Shown in pieces: positions 15,399 to 62,139 of a stretch of DNA of 64,000 bases. A model generated the notes under the pieces. It saw only the letters and a program-made list of their open reading frames with translations. It was not told the DNA's origin and searched no databases. Numbering within the stretch: the stretch's first letter is position 1; the number at the start of each line of letters is the position of its first letter. The DNA is from Antedon mediterranea (lineage: Eukaryota > Echinodermata > Crinoidea > Comatulida > Antedonidae). The position numbers and the translations under genes were made by a program. Location: NCBI RefSeq assembly GCF_964355755.1, contig NC_092673.1:20589001-20653000 (forward strand). The letters are read 5' to 3'.

Positions 15399-15408
15399 TA
15401 TATAAAAG
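15399..15408 (+). promoter_or_regulatory. TATA box of the helical-cytokine-like gene
   Basis: TATATAAAAG, a near-ideal TATA element 89 bases before the start codon. Transcription would start near 15430, giving a ~65-base leader. Position and match support it; no start-site data. Confidence 0.7.
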
Positions 15409-15496: not shown

Positions 15497-18439
15497 ATGA
15501 AGTTAACCATCAGTATTATTGGTAAGAACATTTTTATTTACCAGTTTGTGTTTTTTTGTTTTCTATTGTAGAATTGGCAAATCATTTTTTGTTATTTGAT
15601 ATAATTTATTTTTATTTCAACCATCTTTAAAGAGGACAACCCTTCAAGTTTAGCCCAGTGGGTCAACTGATATTTTAATCATAATTATCATAATTGTTTT
15701 TCATAGTGCTATTTTTCTGTAAGTGTTTTAATCATTTAATTCTGGGTAATATGGTATACATTTTTTTATAGATTTTTTTCAATCAGTAAATAAAGGTACT
15801 TAAATATGATATTTTATCAAATACAGAATACATTATTTTAGGAAATTTGTAGTCAATCGTGGCTTGATGCGCATTGAAGATAAAAGTTCAAACATTATAC
15901 GAAACTATACGCTTTAAAACAAATGGTTCTCCAATCGTTTTAACTCAAAAAAAGTTTAAAATATTTTTCATTCAGTCCTTCTTCATATAGAAGATCTCTC
16001 ATCTGTCTACTATTTGTTTATTAGGAACTTAGGCTTAAAAGGACAGTTACATTTGCAACGTTATATTTGGCGGGTTAATGTGCATCTTTAGTCATACTTT
16101 TTGACAATTGACTTTCCACAAGCGATATACTTAGTCCGGAAATAAAATAATTAGTCTAGGTTGTGGTCCGAAATGAGTAAAAAGATAAATATTTTGGCAC
16201 ATATGGCGTTTCATACGTATAATACTTTTGTATAGTTTTCAGACAAAAATCGAAAAACCGACTGGTGGACAAACATAAAATAGACTACAACACAGACTTG
16301 GGGCACTAGTTTATAAAGCAATCTGACCGATAGATTAGAACCAGGGAAAAGGGTAGCCTTATGCGACTTGAGCACTCTTGAGTGGTATGTGCGCTATAAA
16401 AATCCTGTTATTATTATTATAAATATGTTGCGCTTAATGTCTTACGTGTATACACTCCATTATTATACGCGACTAAGTTGAAAGCCTTTCGAGCACAAAG
16501 TTGCAAAATACTGAGCATTGTAGTATGATGATTATACATTACAGCATTGGTATTCACTATGGTGACGGCCACTATTCCATCAAACCTGACACAATCTTGT
16601 CAAATCGAACTTGCACCGGACAATCTCTATCAACTTTATGCCAAGTTGAACTCTACCATATCAACTGTAAGTAGACATTATGTATCTCTATAATTATACT
16701 TCTAAATTAAGGAAAAAATTAATCTATATCAGTGATCAAAAATAATATTAATAACATCGAATATGTGGGCTTAGATAAATAAAAATCTATTTGGTTAATT
16801 TGAAATATATAAATATATATAAGAATTGTCATGGATCGGGGCACTTACAACAATTTTCATTTGCTCATATGCATAATTATACGATTGTAATGGATTGAAG
16901 CACTAACAGTTGTCATTATAATACTTTTCTTCCCAAAGAAGAACCGGTATTGTCGACTAATAATATATTACTGAATAACTATTTATAAATTAGATCATCT
17001 CCAGGCTTATTTGAATACATTTCACAAAAGTTTCTTAAAACTTGGTTCTCTTGACGCAAAGTGATGTATTTAATCGATCAATTCACATTTATTTACTGAC
17101 ATTTTATTACTGATTGCATAATCACAAGTGAGAATCGATGACGCAACAGTGCTGCTTTGATTTCACGCAGGCGGGGGAAAACACAATAATTAAAAGGGCA
17201 TTTTCTTGCGTTGCGTTGCGTCGCTAGTGGAAACCAAGCTTTGCTTAAAGCTTGGTTCCCACTAGAACGTAACGCAAGGACGTAAACACAACGCAAGCGT
17301 TATAACCAATGACAAGCGAAGTTATTATATAGACAGTTAGCAATCACAAGCGAATAAGCCATCGCTTGTGATTAGTCAATTTACTTGCGTTGCGTTACGT
17401 CCTTTTGTTGCGTCACTAGTGGGAACCACGCATTACGCGTACAGTGCGCTTGCGTTGCGTTCAGTGGCAACCAAGTTTTATGGGAGGAGAGAGGTTTTAT
17501 AGAGTTAAGATTTTTATGCCATGTTTAATCAAACCACAAAAGGTAGCTATACATACATCTGTACGTATCCGTGAAAGTTCATCTGTCTACGTGCTAATTA
17601 TTATTATTTTTTTTGTTTATTAGACCAATGGTTCAATTCGGCATTTTCGATTTCTTCAACGTCTAACGAACATAAGTAATCCTTGTGTAAGTACCGTACA
17701 ACACATTTCATTTGTGACTATATTTTAATTCAATCTGTATTTCCGGTCTTCAAATGTTCGCTATAAAAGTTTTATTGTTAAAGTCGTTTACCACCATAAG
17801 AAATATAATTTTGTGAGTGACATGACATTGGTATATTTCCTAATTATTTTACTAAGCTCAGAGAGGATAAAATTATTTTATTGTTGACCATTTCTCTTTC
17901 AGCGAGGATTGAAGAGGTATCATCAACATTTCACAAACACGCTATTCTTGGTTTCCTCTCCAAATAATGAGATTGTTAAAATGCACACAGTAACCAATTG
18001 CATTAAACGTTGGGTAAGGTGTTATCTGATTATCGTCAATTTCAATCAAAGATTTTATGCACATCAATTAAAATAATATTATTTCGATAATAACACTATA
18101 GGAGAATTATCAATCACACGTATGGTGTGGAAACGTGTTGGGTTGCCGTCAATGACGCCACGAATATTTGGCGCTCGCCGTTCAAACATTGTTGAATCAT
18201 TTTACGAGTTTTATTCGCGCGCGCGCGCATATCACTCGATATTGCATAGTAATTTATTTATTTTATTCCTGCAGATCAATTTGAAAGACATTACATACAC
18301 CTTTAACGCTACCACTAATAGTACATCGGTGAACGCTACTGTTAATGACGTAATCATCTTCGATCGCCTTCTCAAGTTTCTCGCAGGGTTGGTAATGGAA
18401 GTTGGTTCTCTGATGACGTCGACTAATTTCTGCTTTTAA
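15497..18439 (+). CDS. secreted four-cysteine helical glycoprotein, class I helical-cytokine-like
   Basis: Five coding exons: 15497-15521, 16545-16666, 17624-17686, 17903-18013, 18275-18439; all borders GT/AG, intron phases 1, 0, 0, 0. Product: 161 residues. Residues 1-18 are a signal peptide (MKLTISIIALVFTMVTAT). The mature part is ~143 residues with Cys27, Cys70, Cys103 and Cys160, so two disulfides are possible. N-glycosylation sequons are at Asn 22, 44, 51, 65, 118, 122 and 127. Helix-like stretches fall near 29-48, 53-66, 71-107 and 130-153; the last, IIFDRLLKFLAGLVMEVGSL, is clearly amphipathic. Family knowledge: EPO, IL-6 and growth hormone genes share five coding exons with phases 1-0-0-0, a tiny first exon and a short third exon. 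I recognise no sequence homologue, so cytokine function is inference from architecture. It has its own TATA box and lies ~860 bp upstream of PBDC1 on the same strand. It could instead be another secreted helical protein. Confidence 0.75.
16361..16424 (+). repeat. SINE 3' tail with (TTA)n
   Basis: Contains ACTTGAGCACTCTTGAGTGG, GTGCGCTATAAAAATCCTG and a TTA run; a copy of the tail at 8745-8817. In intron 1 of the cytokine-like gene. Confidence 0.7.
17196..17480. mobile_element. MITE family A, complete copy flanked by partial copies
   Basis: The complete copy is 17246-17433, starting AAAGCTTGGTTCCCACTAG and ending ACTAGTGGGAACCACGC. It is flanked by single ends of the same family at 17196-17240 and 17434-17480, so one copy may have inserted into another. 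Intron 2 of the cytokine-like gene. Confidence 0.75.
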
Positions 18440-18569
18440 AACTAGAACGGAACCATATTTTGTATTTACCTTGATATGTTGTTGTATATAATTATAATAT
18501 AGTGTATAACTCTATACTCATAAAGAAGCTTAAAACAAAATTATTTTTTTCACTAATTTTATTGTATAT

Positions 18570-18651
18570 AGAGACACAACGGAATTATTCGTGACTTTCG
18601 CTGGCGTTGTAGTCTTTGCATTGTACTTGAGTATCGAGAATATTAATTAAA
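18570..18651 (+). other. possible alternative terminal exon and poly-A signal downstream of the cytokine-like gene
   Basis: After an acceptor-like TATATAG at 18564-18570, one frame stays open for 25 codons and encodes the hydrophobic run LFVTFAGVVVFALYLSI before a TAA. If used with a weak donor inside exon 5 it would replace the last residues by a membrane-type tail. ATTAAA at 18646-18651 is a candidate poly-A signal. More likely this is simply 3' UTR. Confidence 0.25.
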
Positions 18652-19295
18652 AACAAGATAGGCTCTTCTAAATTCTATAGTAATAATTTAATAATGTAGT
18701 AGGCCTAGCCTAACTAAGTTAAGCCTTAAGTAATTTTAAATATAATAATTAATCATTAAATGCTTTTACATTTTATAATTTTATTATATCCATGTTGGTT
18801 TACAATAGAGACGTGACACAACACAAGGACGCATAGCGCATTTATTCGCGAACTGCCGTTTGCGTTGCGTCTACGTACGTCGTCTTTGCATTGTTTCCAA
18901 GTTTGAACCAAGCTTTATCCAGTAGAATAGAATGTACGTACCATAATAAGATACTAAAATGAATTAAATGTTTGATTCCTAAAAATATTTATTTTATTTC
19001 TGTGTTTTATAGTTCCAATTAATAATCTTAATTAATGTTGATGGCATTATGAGGAAGATTATTATTTATATACATATCAATTATATTGATAGAAATTATA
19101 CTTATTAATATTAATAATGATGACGAATGATGAGGCGACAGAGTACACGAGTACACTGTGCAGAGCCATTGAATATTATGGCTCTGACACATTGCAGTAG
19201 CGCCCTCTGTTTCTTTCGTTTTTGTCCCATGCTTGCATACCAACCACCCACACATGTGTATTCCTTGTATAAAAAGTTGATTGAAATTGAAAAAG
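18652..19295. other. intergenic: PBDC1 upstream region
   Basis: Contains a degraded MITE family A copy (18806-18915) and a small hairpin (AGAGCCAT/ATGGCTCT) at about 19162-19186, close to the presumed PBDC1 start of transcription. No TATA box was recognised. Minus-strand open frames here are not supported as genes. Confidence 0.4.
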
Positions 19296-22200: not shown

Positions 22201-25200
22201 ATTGCCTGAGGTTAGAATGGTAACCATACATTTATGTAGGGCAACTAAACCTAAAAAGGCAACCTTTCTGTCCTTTTGAGTAAAAATCTTTAAAATAGTT
22301 TTATAAATAAAGGTGAAGAAATTCAGGAGGAAGGACGATAAACTAAACAATTGGAAGGACAGCCATTCCAGGGAATTTTACGAGCACTGAGTTATACAAA
22401 TCCTTATTGATATGAGATAATATGATGATTTGATTTCAACAATTTGTTTTAATTTTATAAATGTAACTTAAAAGTAAATTTGTTTATCCAATCTTTATGG
22501 GTGTGTAGCGCAGTGTGTTGGACTACGAATCGTGGGTTCGAATCCAACTCTCGTCGCATATCCTTGGGCAAAACACTTTACTTATGTTTGCCTCTCTCCA
22601 CCCAGGTGTACAAATGTGTACCTTGTATTAAGGTCAAGACACAACTTTGCACTGATTACTAGCTACATTATGCCACACTGTAGTATGTTTCCAAACATGT
22701 TTGATCCAGAAATTACCGGGGTAATAAAATATCGCTTAGAGGTTGCAAGACCTTAGGCACTTTATATTAAATCCAAGATATTATTATTATTAAAATCATT
22801 TAATTGTTTGTTGATTGATCTAAATCTTTTAGGCAAATATTGAAATGCAGTGGGCAATGAAGGCATTCAAACACGCAGAGGTCTATTACAATGTAAGTTA
22901 ACAGTTAAATAGTGAACAATAGAGAGAAATGGCGAACCGACGTCTAAAATCCGAGTGGGTATAAAATCATAACAAACCGTTGAGGGAGGCACATTTCCTA
23001 TGTTTATACACGTGAATCATGGAGTCGTCTAACCAATGTTGTTGCTGTAACGCATAATTCTTTTTCTATTTGTGTATTTAGTCATCCATCATTCACAATC
23101 ATATTCCTAAAAATATCTCATATCTGTAGGTCTACATTAGACTAGGCCTATAGTATTATAGTAGAATGGTGTTATCAAATATTCATTACTGGCGGTAGCC
23201 CCCCTGCAGGAAGCATCACTTACACTAGCCACATAACAAAAAAATGGCAGTTGTCAAGCTGAAACTACGTCTACTAGAGATGCTCTATTTAGTCTTATAG
23301 CTAAAGTAGTAGTGGTACAGAGCTGGGTACAGTATATAACAAAAACGCGTCTTAATTCAATCCAAATTGAAATAAAATATGTTAAGATTTGCCCATATAA
23401 CATTAAAATTGTTAAGGGTGTTGAAAAAAAAAAAGATACTGCTATTATGTGTGTTTTAAACGTTCTTTTCTAACTACCTTTTTAACTCAACCCATCGGAA
23501 TTTCCCATATAAAAACATGTGGCGAAATGGTTTGTTTACAATCTATACCCACTCGGTGAAATTTGAGTGATGTCATCGCGGTTCGCCATTTCTCTCTATT
23601 ATAAACTACATTCAATGGCATTTCTTAAACTTGGTCTACACTGTCAAACTTTATTTACTAATTTACTTACAAAAAAAAAACATGATGTGCCCATGTATGG
23701 ACATGATGATGTCTCATATCACTACTATATTTGGGCATACCGCCACCATATTTGGGCATATCGCCACCATATTTGGGCACATCACATTTTGTTTGTCAAA
23801 CTAGTTTGATGGTGTAGACAGAGCTTTAGATCAATTTTAACATAACTATTTTTTCAACAGTTAATATCTTCAGTTGATTCTACAAGTCTAAAACTTACAA
23901 AACATGACGATGAAATTTTGGAGAATTTCAAGAAAGATTTTCCAGATTTTAAAATTGATAAATTTGAAGAAGGTGACTTAAAATCAGATACTGCTAAATC
24001 TGTAAGTATTTTATCAATCAACGAGTAAAGATAGCCTGTCATTTTTGCGAACATTTTATGTCCGTATTCATATATACAGTAGATATAAGTTGAGTTATGA
24101 ATAATTCCTTTTTGAATTTTTTAAAAACGATTACTTTGATTAAAACACTACAAAAATATTAATTGTAATGTTATATATTATTCCTGAGGACTTTCAAAGC
24201 ATATTGATTGAAACGTCGAGAAACTCAACAGTTCTTTTCAGAACTAATACAGGTGGTGCACCGCAAACTTTATCAACATTTGATTTCGCCATGCAAACCA
24301 AATTCACTTAAAATATATTTATATATTTTTTTAACATAGAACTGTTACTCTTAAATATATTTTCAAAAATTCTACTTATAGCAAATTTCATAACTCCGAT
24401 TTGCTTCGTTGAAATATAACTTTTATTATTTACCTCATGTTATTATTTTTACCATTTTCCACTCATCAACATTCATTATATGTTTGATATTTTTTATCAA
24501 GCACTTTAGTTTTATCTATTTGTACAGTATATGTAATTGTAAATAATGTTGTCATTAGAAATGGAGGCCATTTTGTAATCATTTTGATGGTACAGTGGAA
24601 GATTTCAACTATGGAACCCTTTTACGGTTAGACTGTACTAAGGACTACTCGGAAGAGAATTCGACTTTAGGTAAATATTTTATCTCTGTTACGATTTTTA
24701 TTAGCTAACAATGCTAAGGATGTCAGAATTGTGTTCTCACAGCAAAAACAAATCAAATTGCAAGGTAAGATTGTTTTCACCTATATTAAAAATGGTAGCT
24801 TTGTTTAAAATGGACCTGAAATGGACTTTCGATTTTCAAGAAATTCACACATGTTATTTAAATGTATCAAATTAACACAAACCCATACAAATAAAAACAA
24901 AATTTATAGTATTTTGAGTAAAAACGAAATTTTAAGATACTATTGTAAATTAGCGAAAATTACTCACGCCATTGAAATATTCTATTTCAACGGCCGTCGG
25001 GAAGCCTCTATATTCACGACGTCACATATACAGGGTCGATGATATCGAGAGCATGTATGCCGCCCGATAGTCAGTGAATGATCGACGGCCTGGAAAGATA
25101 CGCGAAGCGTTGACACTAATACTAATTTATTCAATATCTGATGTTGTTGAAATATAGGTCCCTAAAATGTACTTCGTTTGTTCTAAAACCCGAATTTAGA

Positions 25201-27746: not shown

Positions 27747-28964
27747 TTACAAATTTGGTTTTCCTTTTTTTGGATACGGTGAAATCAAGAAATCCCACCG
27801 ATCCTCTGCTAATTCCAAATCACATGTTACAGTGTCTGTATTCGGTAAAATCTTTTCGGCTGTTGTTGACGTAGATGAGTGATGCTTGCACTCTGCACTT
27901 TCTAATGTTTTTAACCAATCACGGCAGCGCTGCTCGTTTTCCGCCATGTACAAAATATCGTCAAATTCTGAGCCCCTTAATAATCGAATTTCATGTGGTT
28001 TACCTTCCGCCAATGGTATGACGAGATTTGATGCTTCCGGCATTTCCGATGCATCGATAACCATACTATGTGTTCTGTGGATATTCGAACGTAATCGTTT
28101 GTCTTTGGCTTCAATTCTCAACTTTGACCTATTCACTGAACTCAAATCAAGCTTTGATCTTCCGTTATCTGGGGGTACCTCTACAACAGTGAAGTTTTGC
28201 CAAGATGGCGGCTTCGGACGATTGTTGGGATATCTTTCTTTGCTATTCTCCTTTCTCCTTGTTTTCGATTTTTCTGGAGTTTTTTCTCGATGTTTCGAAG
28301 ATCTTTCATTTTGGTTGGCATCGTACAGTTCATTATCGTTAACTTTGCGGGGTTGATGCGCATCCCGTTTGCATTTTGATGTATCGAAAGTTTTTCCCAT
28401 TGTCTGTTTAGCACACTTTCTAAAGTTATCTCCAGTTGTTGGCACACATACCTTCAACCTATCGCTTTGCTGTAAAGATGGCCACGAATACGAATGTTTT
28501 ATAAGCCTAACATTTACCTTATCGTCTTCCTGGTACTCGTTTAAATACGGTAAACTGCTAAATTCATTTCTACCATTGAAGTTTGTAATGCGATATCTAT
28601 CAAAGATCTTTGTGAATTCATAAAATCGTTTTAGATTTTTCAGTTTTGCACGATCACGTCCTGAAGTCGTCTTTGGAGTCGATGGAACGCGCTTTTTGTC
28701 GTCTCTCTGTATATGCCTTGCGTGTTTATTTCTATACACGTTGTTAGACGACAACAAACGTTCGTTTTCTTTCGTAGTAGGCCTACCTGCAATTGGATCA
28801 AGCCTGTTCTTTGATGATTTACGTGGCAACTGTTGACCGTATGTTTCATCCGGTGACCGTACGGTTATTTTGTCGAACTGCGTTACCAGATTTTTAGTCG
28901 GTATTTTGCCGATTCTAGTTAGGTCCTTGCATGCACTGTTCTTCGCAACACGCCGAACACTCAT
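27747..28964 (-). CDS. uncharacterised basic 405-residue protein, single exon
   Basis: An open frame of 405 codons without introns, far longer than anything else nearby. The start used is the first Met (MSVRRVAKNS). I do not recognise the family. The protein is strongly basic and looks largely disordered for residues 1-250, rich in Lys/Arg/Asn/Ser/Asp. A KPPSWQNFTVVEVPPDNG stretch sits in the middle. The last ~130 residues look more ordered: HEIRLLRGSEFDDILYMAE, CRDWLKTLE, and an acidic-aromatic end ELAEDRWDFLISPYPKKG. No signal peptide or membrane segment. A TATA box lies ~170 bases upstream and AATAAA downstream, so it looks like a real gene, perhaps retrocopied or lineage-specific. The overlapping plus-strand frame at 27886-28356 is a shadow. 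Confidence 0.75.
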   Translation of the reverse strand: MSVRRVAKNSACKDLTRIGKIPTKNLVTQFDKITVRSPDETYGQQLPRKSSKNRLDPIAGRPTTKENERLLSSNNVYRNKHARHIQRDDKKRVPSTPKTTSGRDRAKLKNLKRFYEFTKIFDRYRITNFNGRNEFSSLPYLNEYQEDDKVNVRLIKHSYSWPSLQQSDRLKVCVPTTGDNFRKCAKQTMGKTFDTSKCKRDAHQPRKVNDNELYDANQNERSSKHREKTPEKSKTRRKENSKERYPNNRPKPPSWQNFTVVEVPPDNGRSKLDLSSVNRSKLRIEAKDKRLRSNIHRTHSMVIDASEMPEASNLVIPLAEGKPHEIRLLRGSEFDDILYMAENEQRCRDWLKTLESAECKHHSSTSTTAEKILPNTDTVTCDLELAEDRWDFLISPYPKKGKPNL

Positions 28965-33069: not shown

Positions 33070-34627
33070 CCTTGTGATTGTAGTGGATCAATATTTTTTT
33101 TTTTTTTTTCTGTATTCTTCTTATTTCTTTCCCATTTTTTTGTGAGTCACGTTTCTCTAAAATGTGTAAACATAACATTTTATAACTTTGACAACATGTG
33201 GGCATTTACGTGAAGTTGTGCATCTCCTATTTTGAATGACGTCAGAGTTGCGCAACGTGACTTGCGCGCGATTTTATGATTTTTAATGATTGATCATAGC
33301 TTAAAAACCAAGAGTAATTTTTTTTTTACCCTTTATGAAAATTTAAGTCATATCAAGGGCAAATTGTTAGTGCACTAAAAATGGCATGTTTTACAAAAAG
33401 TTACGCGTGCACGCGCATTTAAAATTTCAAAATGCGCAAAATTAATTTCTAATCAACTTTCTACGCGTTTCATGTCATTTTAAGCATGTAAAAAATTCCC
33501 ACGCGTGCGCACATTTTTGCGTGTGCGGTGCGCACGTAGCATTAAAAACATATTTTTTTCGAGTGATTTATGTTTTTCCAGCCTTTTATAGTAATTTTAC
33601 CAACTTTTAAACACTTCCGACTTAAAGTTACGTCATACGAGCACGTCGAATTGGACAATTTGCGCACGTTTTTGATGAAAAAGTACAAAAATTTGTCAAA
33701 ATTATGCCTTTTTTTAAACAGTCGTAATTTCTAAACTACACGGTCAACTTTTTGTGGATGACATATTCCGGAAGTTGATGAGTTGTAGATATCAGATCAT
33801 GTATTAATATGGCTAACCGGACATTTTAACGTCATCGTATGGCCACGCGAATATAAAATTGAGGATTTTTGTATCTTTCGTCATAGCTCATCACATTTAA
33901 TAGAGCCATTCTCCACTTATCCATTTTCCATTTTCACCCCGATTTTGATATTGTCTAGGTCAATCAACTATCTTTCGCATGAGTTAAAAATATTTTAATT
34001 ATTATGACGTCATCATGCCTAAAAATTTAAATTACATGTGGCATTAATTTCATCTTTACAGAAAATTTTAATCTGTTATAGCTCGTAAGAATAAAATGTG
34101 ATAATCACGATTAAAACGTTTTCTGGAAGATATTGGATTGTAGATACAAAATCATGTAAACATTTGGCAAATCGGATGTTGTGACGTCATCATATGGCCA
34201 GTTAAATAAAAAAAGTCGTATTTTCATATTTTGCGTCATAGTTCATTACATTTAAAAGAGCGCGCATTAATATTTCACGTATTAAAATTTCTTCTACACG
34301 TTAATATGTTGTTGCTGAGATAATTTCCTTCCGAAATTGCTATATCAGTGTTTCATTTTCATACCGTCACCATGTTAAAAATTGGAATAAATGACGGGAC
34401 CCGTAATTTCGCCTATCCTACACTGTAATAATATGTATACAGATTATACTATGTATACTGTAAATAGTATATGACACAAAATATACAGCATTTAGCACTA
34501 ACAACATATTATACTCTTCAGTTCATGTCAATATGCCATAATCTTTTTCTGTGTCCAATATATGACGTGCACGTGGCGTTTGTCGTGCGGATAACTAACT
34601 CGTCAAAGTGACGAGTTTCATGTCTAG
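33044..34627 (+). mobile_element. array unit E6, complete
   Basis: Uninterrupted element from its 5' hairpin through T run and body to CTAG at 34624-34627. The body is nearly identical to 42030-43540. Confidence 0.8.
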
Positions 34628-34653: not shown

Positions 34654-36249
34654 AGTTATCCGCTTAGTAGCGGATAACTCCTTGTAATCGTCCTGTTTCA
34701 TCATATTTTTTTTTTTTTTCTGTATTATACTTCTTTCCTTCTGTCATTTTTGTGCGTCGTGTTTCTCTAAAACGTGTAAACAGAACATATCGTAACTTTC
34801 TCAACATATCGACATTTACGTGAACTTGTGCACCTCCTATTTTTGAATGACGTCAGAGTTGCGCAACGTGACTTATGCGCGATTTTATGAATTTCAATGA
34901 TTGATCATAGACTAAAAACCAAACATAATTTTGTTTTGACACTTTGTGAAAATTTAAGTCATATCAAGCGCAAACTTTCTATGGATTAAAAATAGCATGT
35001 TTCACAAAAAGTTACGCGCGCACGCGCGTTTAAAATTTTACTATGGGAAAAATCAACTTCTAATCAACTTTCTATGCGTTTCATGTCATTTTGAGCATGT
35101 CAAAAATTCCCACGCGCGCGAAAATTTTTACGCACGCGGTGCACACGAAGCGTTAAAAACATATTTTTTTTGCATGATTTATGTTTTTTCAGCCTTTTCT
35201 AGTAATGTTACCAACTTTTAAACAATTTCGACTTAAAATTACGTCATACGAGCACGTCGAATTAGATAATTTGCACGCGTTTTTGGTGAAAAAGTTCCAA
35301 AATTCGTCAAAATTATGCCTATTTTTAAACAGTCATAGATTCTAAACTACATGGAGAACTTTTTTTTAATTACATATTCTGGAAGTTGATGAGTTGTAGA
35401 TATCGAATCATGCATTAATATGGCTAACCGAACATTGTGACGTCATCGTATGGCCACGCGAATATAAAATATAGGATTTTTGTCTCTTTCGTAATAGCTC
35501 ATCACATTTAATAGAGCGCATCTCCACTTATTTTTTGTCCATTTTCACCCCGATTTTAATATATTCTAGGTCAATCAACTATCTTTTGCATGAATTAAGA
35601 ATTTTTTAATTTGTTTAACGTCATCATGCCTAAAAATTTAAATTACGTTGGTCATTAATTTCATCTTTACAGTAAATTTTAATCTGTTATAGCTCGTAAG
35701 AATAAAATGTGATAATCACAATTAAAACATTTACAGGATGCTATTGTATAGTAGATACAAAATCATGTGAAAATTGTGCCAATCGAATGTTGTGACGTCA
35801 TCATATGGCCAGTTGAATAAAAAAAGTCGTATTTTCATATTTTGCGTAATAGTTCATCACATTTAAAAGGGTGCACATCTATATTTTACGTATTCAAATT
35901 TCTTCTACACGTTAATATGTTTTTCCTGAGATAATTTCCTTCTGAAATTGCTATCTAAGTGTTTCATTTTGATACCGTCGCCATGTTAAAAATTGGAATA
36001 AATGGCGGGTCCCGTAATTTCACCTATTCTACACTGTATGTAATATGTATACAGATTATAATGTTTGCATGTATATACTATATGACACAAAATTGACAGA
36101 ATTCAGCACTAACAGCATATCTTATTCTTCAGTTCTTGTCATAATGCCATAATCTTTATCTGTGTGCAATATTCCAACGTATGACGTGCACGTGGCGTTT
36201 GTCGTGGTGCGGATAACTAACTCGTCAAAGTGACGAGTTTCATGTCTAG
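34654..36249 (+). mobile_element. array unit E7, complete
   Basis: 5' hairpin 34654-34679, post-hairpin TAATCGTCCTGTTTCATC, 3' end CTAG at 36246-36249. A leftover T run at 34628-34651 belongs to the element it entered. Confidence 0.8.

Positions 36250-59178: not shown

Positions 59179-62139
<2,961 letters not shown>

Follow-up and report, generated by a model that had tools for sequence, protein, structure and literature searches.

Does the genome of the crinoid Antedon mediterranea contain a gene for a helical cytokine of the kind known from vertebrates? The question is raised by five short exons on contig C4, in a stretch of 64,000 nucleotides that is referred to here as the window (C4:20589001-20653000, in a genome of 354 Mb in 18 contigs). 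An initial annotation had joined these exons into one gene with the architecture of the long-chain class I cytokines.

Gene model and genomic context

The five exons occupy letters 15497-18439 of the window on the + strand. They have GT/AG borders throughout and intron phases of 1, 0, 0 and 0, and they join into a secreted frame of 161 residues. Exon 1 (15497-15521, 25 nt) holds the start codon and the first part of the signal peptide, and ends in phase 1. Intron 1 (15522-16544, phase 1) has a GC content of 0.304 and contains a dispersed repeat at about 16145-16319. This repeat has 43 scored matches elsewhere, with 78-94% identity, 40 of the 2,328 first-look candidates having been scored. Exon 2 (16545-16666, 122 nt) encodes the remainder of the signal peptide, Cys27 and a proposed helix A. 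It is followed by intron 2 (16667-17623, phase 0), in which TTGCGTTGCG-type stretches, repeated and partly inverted, can be read around 17200-17450. Exon 3 (17624-17686, 63 nt) covers the proposed A-B connection and an amphipathic stretch, with Cys70 at its end. After intron 3 (17687-17902, phase 0, 216 nt), exon 4 (17903-18013, 111 nt) carries Cys103 and is proposed to encode helices B and C, joined by a short turn. Intron 4 (18014-18274, phase 0, 261 nt) leads to exon 5 (18275-18439, 165 nt including the stop), which encodes a glycosylated C-D loop with three sequons, the proposed helix D, and Cys160 as the penultimate residue.

All four introns have the donor sequence GTAAG, of which the + strand of the window has 42 occurrences. 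A TATA-box-like motif, TATATAAAAG, lies at 15399-15408 on the + strand, 98 bases upstream of the ATG. It is the sole copy on that strand of the window, with one further copy on the opposite strand; the looser form TATAWAARR has 16 sites on the + strand. Downstream of the gene, no AATAAA is found from 18431 to 19200, and the first ATTAAA is at 18646. The predicted protein has cysteines at 27, 70, 103 and 160 and seven sequons, at 22, 44, 51, 65, 118, 122 and 127. A hydropathy reading places a signal-peptide-like stretch of nine uncharged residues, with a mean hydropathy of 3.0, near the N-terminus. On all of these points (the five-exon model with its borders and phases, the 161-residue frame, the cysteine positions, the seven sequons and the TATA motif) the initial annotation is exact, letter for letter.

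The genes for EPO, IL-6, G-CSF and growth hormone have five coding exons with phases 1-0-0-0. The candidate shares with them this number of exons and this phase pattern, a tiny first exon that splits the signal peptide, a last exon of about 165 nt that ends in a long helix, and EPO-like cysteines near both ends of the chain. It differs in having no detectable sequence similarity to them and in its shorter chain of 161 residues, and its fold is a proposal. Its exon 3 is also shorter than in the vertebrate long-chain genes, which counts against a class I ligand. Short-chain class I cytokines such as IL-4 and GM-CSF resemble the candidate in their compact size, and the two long-range disulfides proposed below are similar to the 3-127 and 46-99 pairs of IL-4. 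However, the short-chain genes have four exons in phase 0, unlike the candidate.

The surroundings include two ordinary neighbours, namely an exon of PBDC1 at 23846-24025 of the window and an exon of cytosolic aspartate aminotransferase at 59756-59971. Apart from these neighbours, a Pfam scan of ten frames from the window gave one more match, below its cut-off. Between 33500 and 57400 of the window, frames that resemble each other return at intervals of several kilobases (near 33789, 42709 and 49400, and near 34958, 41123, 47816 and 51979), and this region is probably a large repeat array. An open frame of 405 residues at 27747-28964 of the window, on the - strand, has no Pfam match at E 0.01. 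The sequence of the genome supports an echinoderm host: two tektin fragments have much higher scores with a chain of PDB entry 8snb, the sea-urchin sperm doublet, than with any other chain listed (174.7 against 136.2 bits, and 211.3 against 134.9), those other chains being mainly from vertebrates. COX1 was not found in the assembly. Genome matches fell on C1 to C11 only; taken with the total size, this would suggest, as a guess, some eleven large chromosomes, a number found in crinoids.

Similarity searches and predicted fold

The candidate protein has no cytokine match in Pfam up to E 10. Three weak and unrelated matches were returned, the top one being to carnosine N-methyltransferase (E 0.02, far under its cut-off). 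Nor is there a cytokine match in the PDB up to E 10, where the lone match is to the unrelated FAP279 (E 0.49). A second copy in the genome was sought with the whole protein and with exon 5 alone, the best first-look candidates being scored in both searches; the first found none, and exon 5 found only itself. A possible distant paralogue at C10:24290233 (residues 20-84, 28% identity) was rejected, as the match crosses two exon borders without an intron and contains an internal stop; its E value of 0.39 fits chance. The profile of the growth hormone family (PF00103) found no convincing member in the genome, its one match, on another chromosome, having 15.4 bits and E 2.89. The lack of a cytokine match and of a visible paralogue counts against a class I ligand. 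Sequence similarity across families is, however, absent in many accepted class I cytokines too.

Six segments of the protein were analysed for periodicity of hydrophobicity, and four of them (52-67, 71-88, 92-110 and 130-157) have peaks at 100-115 degrees, which is the alpha range. The proposed helix A (28-48) has its peak at 180 degrees, outside this range, which speaks against the class I reading, and the C-D loop segment has no alpha-range peak. Shuffle tests on single segments are modest, with P values from 0.017 to 0.144 for the four alpha-peaking segments on one scale. Taken over the whole chain, alpha periodicity exceeds beta periodicity: two hydrophobicity scales give P 0.0017 and P 0.0043 against 3,000 concatenations of open frames, and 0 of 400 and P 0.007 against shuffles of the candidate's own composition.

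Structure predictions were made for two of the exons. Exon 5 folded alone is predicted to form a loop and then a helix over residues 130-157 of the protein (exon residues 23-50), with block pLDDT values of 81 and 90 over exon residues 21-40 and 66 over 41-50. In this model, the helix looks as the last helix of such a bundle would be expected to look. For exon 4 folded alone, AlphaFold2 predicts a beta hairpin at low confidence (mean pLDDT of 67). This result is evidence against helices B and C, and so against the class I reading, but little can be learned from folding a fragment of 37 residues with no alignment. With the helices arranged as proposed, Cys27 and Cys160 would come together at one end of the bundle, and likewise Cys70 and Cys103, so that the geometry would be consistent. 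In EPO, TPO and IL-4 the terminal cysteine pairs connect helix A to helix D, and the proposed arrangement matches the pairs of EPO and IL-4.

These results bear directly on the alternative that best withstands the evidence, namely that the gene is real but encodes a secreted glycoprotein unrelated to cytokines, helical or not, such as a lineage-specific immune or reproductive protein. Such a protein would explain why no family is matched and why exon 4 is predicted as beta, and phase-1 introns near signal peptides are common among secreted proteins. It would not be expected to show, all together, the five-exon 1-0-0-0 plan, helical periodicity and a last exon that carries a long helix, and on balance we regard it as unlikely, if still a reading to be reckoned with.

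Receptor-like genes, JAK and STAT

The initial annotation had proposed a search for a partner receptor with class I cytokine-receptor modules. Such a search, as far as prediction from sequence can take it, finds gp130-like genes together with JAK and STAT fragments in the same genome. The IL6Ra-bind profile gave three matches in the genome. The best of these (L009) was rejected, as there is nothing recognisably receptor-like in it, and the two weakest led to gp130-like genes: a match of 15 bits led to a gene on C4 (L023, C4:27158001-27168000) and to a near-identical one on C6. When three pieces of the gp130-like gene were used as a query, four copies matched all three pieces, one on C4 (L023) and three on C6 (L024, L026 and L027). 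They are close mutual matches and account for 12 of the 14 matches; the query also found two further weak places.

The first module of the gp130-like gene used for this query has the pattern CX9CXW, followed by a frame with an 'NALG' element. This pattern agrees with CX9-10CXW, the beginning of the class I receptor motif as given in a passage of PMC1963337. The second module has a degenerate WSXWS (NKWSDIVV), which counts against the class I ligand reading, and is followed by further fibronectin-like (fn3-like) frames and a membrane span. The top Pfam match of the first module is IL6Ra-bind, with 17.9 bits against a cut-off of 24.3. The PDB matches are to IL-13 receptor alpha-1 (E 0.02), collagen XX (E 0.45) and GM-CSF receptor alpha (E 1.2 and 1.4).

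In L027 (C6:27430501-27439500) the membrane span is followed by the sequence FMKPLPEPKF, which we take to be a convincing Box1-like motif, and by a frame that may represent a long tail. No such motif is present in the listed frames of L023 and L024, and the stretch of L026 stops before the membrane span. L023 and L024 differ after the membrane span. The genome also contains a JAK fragment (E 2e-4, under its Pfam cut-off) and a STAT fragment (E 4e-12, over its cut-off). The receptor and JAK pieces, being under their Pfam cut-offs, were judged by motif, and STAT by score. Read in this way, the genome appears to possess the signalling half of a class I system.

The EpoR_lig-bind profile gave ten matches, none of them over the cut-off. 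The four that were read are not cytokine receptors: three (L005, L007 and L008, on C10) form a cluster of Ig-type membrane proteins, and the fourth (L006) is a Gli-like transcription factor. The proteins of the C10 cluster (C10:18.08-18.11 Mb) are like each other as Ig-type membrane receptors, with long open frames and differing cytoplasmic tails.

Class I or class II

IL3 and IL21 are class I cytokines. A literature passage describes their genes as having the five-exon plan likewise, with codons unsplit by introns, and describes the codons of the IL-10-family and IFN-lambda 1 genes, which are of class II, as unsplit as well. The genes for the class II ligands IFN-lambda 2 and 3, as set out in a passage of PMC2654155, start with a first exon of four residues and a phase-1 intron, and continue with phase-0 introns. 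Since a phase-1 start is found in IFN-lambda 2 and 3, and unsplit codons in IL3 and IL21, phase alone cannot separate the two classes. The initial annotation had held that the phase-1 first intron points to class I. The phase itself stands, and the candidate does not follow the phase-0-only plan of class II genes; the exclusion of class II was too strong, in view of IFN-lambda 2 and 3 and of class II receptor-like pieces in the genome.

These pieces came from a search with the Tissue_fac profile, which gave 11 matches, five of them over the cut-off. All five lie on C3, and their open frames have lengths of 1,022 to 1,332 residues. Of these, L029 (C3:26544674) was read and was rejected as a class II receptor; it combines fibronectin-type modules with a GTPase-like part. 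Four of the six matches below the cut-off were read (L032-L035), and two of them, on C7 and C9, look receptor-like. The first (L032, C7:20584501-20585300) is a piece of 48 residues that scores 27.3 bits against the Tissue_fac cut-off of 27, and 25.7 bits in the genome search. Its PDB matches are, in order, IL-20 receptor alpha (E 5e-4), myosin-binding protein C (E 0.005) and IFN-lambda receptor 1 (E 0.03). The second (L035, C9:871601-872400) scores 23.2 bits, under the cut-off, and its first PDB match is again IL-20 receptor alpha (E 0.44). Both resemble the first modules of class II cytokine receptors. The presence of such pieces counts against the class I reading.

A class II-type helical cytokine of the interferon or IL-10 kind, with an extra first exon like that of IFN-lambda 2 and 3, is the next alternative. 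The ligands of the IFN-lambda and IL-10 families are likewise small, helical and encoded by several exons. The tiny first coding exon and the phase-1 and then phase-0 introns of the candidate are matched in IFN-lambda 2 and 3 (in the same passage of PMC2654155), and class II receptor-like pieces occur in the same genome, the one on C7 just over the Tissue_fac cut-off and the one on C9 below it. In addition, the second exon of IL-10-type genes is short, and the exon of 63 nt is in keeping with this. On the other side, IFN-lambda 2 and 3 have one intron more than the candidate (PMC2654155, same passage), the IL-10-family and IFN-lambda 1 genes have no phase-1 intron, and neither family gives a sequence match. 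A pair of cysteines near the two ends of the mature chain is, moreover, a class I habit. Given how many introns there are, the length of the last exon and these cysteines, the last two being features generally associated with class I, class I is more likely than class II, and a class II ligand has a rather small chance of being the right answer.

Gene or chance

The candidate is the sole chain of its kind on either strand of the window, that is, of chains with five exons sized like its own, phases 1-0-0-0 and a signal peptide. In the search for such chains the thresholds were the weakest splice scores of the candidate, and the pattern was set after the candidate had been seen. Resampled windows contained such a chain in 16 of 800 cases with a third-order model, and in 1 of 40 with a second-order model in an earlier version. 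The pattern was chosen post hoc, and 2% per window across a genome of 354 Mb would yield about a hundred such models by chance, so that a gene is not proven by its architecture alone. A count over 81 phase patterns gave 12 exon-2 acceptors in the real window, against 0, 0, 2, 2, 0, 0, 0, 0, 3, 3, 0 and 3 in 12 resamples.

Two features of the protein lay outside this search, and for that reason add weight. One is the density of sequons: seven in the mature chain were reached by only 2 of 20,000 length-matched concatenations of random open frames, in which the mean was 1.1, and the P value against shuffles of the candidate's own composition is 0.016. The other is the helical periodicity of the whole chain described above. 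Both are signs of a protein under selection.

Codon usage does not clearly support the status of a gene. The first test gave P 0.37, with a training set in which 4 of 10 tektin pieces had in-frame stops. In a cleaner test, synonymous choice gave P 0.03, inside the range of 12 coding pieces from this genome, while the full model gave P 0.19. On the full model the candidate scores -0.168 bits per codon, under all 12 coding pieces (the lowest of which scores -0.087), which also counts against the class I ligand. The protein is rich in threonine and asparagine (21 Thr and 16 Asn in 161 residues), a composition that would depress the full-model score in a genuine gene too. The GC content of its exons is ordinary for open frames in this genome (P 0.19).

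That there is no gene here, only chance frames linked by chance splice sites, would suit the number of such chains expected in a genome of this size, the two full-model codon results and the lack of a detected homologue, but it is improbable given a sequon density of 2 in 20,000 and a helical periodicity of P 0.002-0.004, both outside the criteria of the chain search, and the synonymous codon test. The candidate is very probably a real gene.

Discussion

Our preferred reading is that the candidate is a gene, apparently present only once in the genome, and that its product is a secreted four-helix ligand of the class I cytokine kind, small and heavily glycosylated. We put the probability of this at about 0.48. 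Its transcription, bundle topology, disulfides and receptor pairing are what we infer. On this reading the ligand would be secreted by means of a signal peptide that is split by the first intron. It would fold into four helices, A at about 28-48, B at 71-88, C at 92-110 and D at 130-157, in which A would be linked to B and C to D by long connections but B to C by a short turn, and would be held by disulfides from Cys27 at the start of A to Cys160 at the end of D, and from Cys70 at the start of B to Cys103 in C. The ligand would then bring the gp130-like receptors of the same genome together, and the Box1 of the receptor would carry JAK and so pass the signal to STAT. We do not claim proven membership of a cytokine family, as sequence similarity was sought and none was found. 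The locus probably holds a gene for a ligand resembling the helical cytokines, in a genome that also has candidate receptors and downstream components.

The closest known parallel in function among invertebrates is the Unpaired/Domeless system of Drosophila, in which a secreted ligand acts on a gp130-like receptor and JAK/STAT (as outlined in a passage of PMC13203501). This is the role proposed for the candidate. The likeness is one of role, and the candidate has no Pfam match to any cytokine family.

In its passages on IL6, a 2026 survey (PMC13203501) restricts IL6 itself to vertebrates, and records from sea urchin, hemichordate and sea squirt receptors that are IL6R-like. The survey is described as using BLAST with thresholds of E 1e-5 and an identity of at least 30%, and would for this reason miss a fast-evolving ligand. 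In the passage concerned, PMC9465101 counts IL-6 among the invertebrate interleukins, citing the IL-6-like molecule from a sea star of Beck and Habicht (1996). A passage of PMC4172062 states that echinoderm signal molecules corresponding to the helical cytokines of the fly have been described, and names none there; this statement counts against the novelty of the candidate ligand. An echinoderm class I ligand gene was not found in the open-access literature, as judged by titles and the starts of abstracts. New here are the gp130-like class I receptor genes of this genome, one copy of which has a Box1-like motif, and its JAK and STAT fragments.

A larger proposal can be put forward only tentatively, and we think it more apt to fail than to hold. 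It is that the gp130-like receptors of echinoderms have their missing ligand in the candidate, a class I cytokine outside the vertebrates that has kept the 1-0-0-0 plan, so that ligand, receptor, JAK and STAT would have been together already in the ancestor of the deuterostomes. A helical cytokine of vertebrate type outside the vertebrates would, if true, be a surprise. With a ligand gene recognised by its intron plan and not by its sequence, the age of class I cytokine signalling could be tested directly, and recognition by intron plan would provide a search recipe for other invertebrates.
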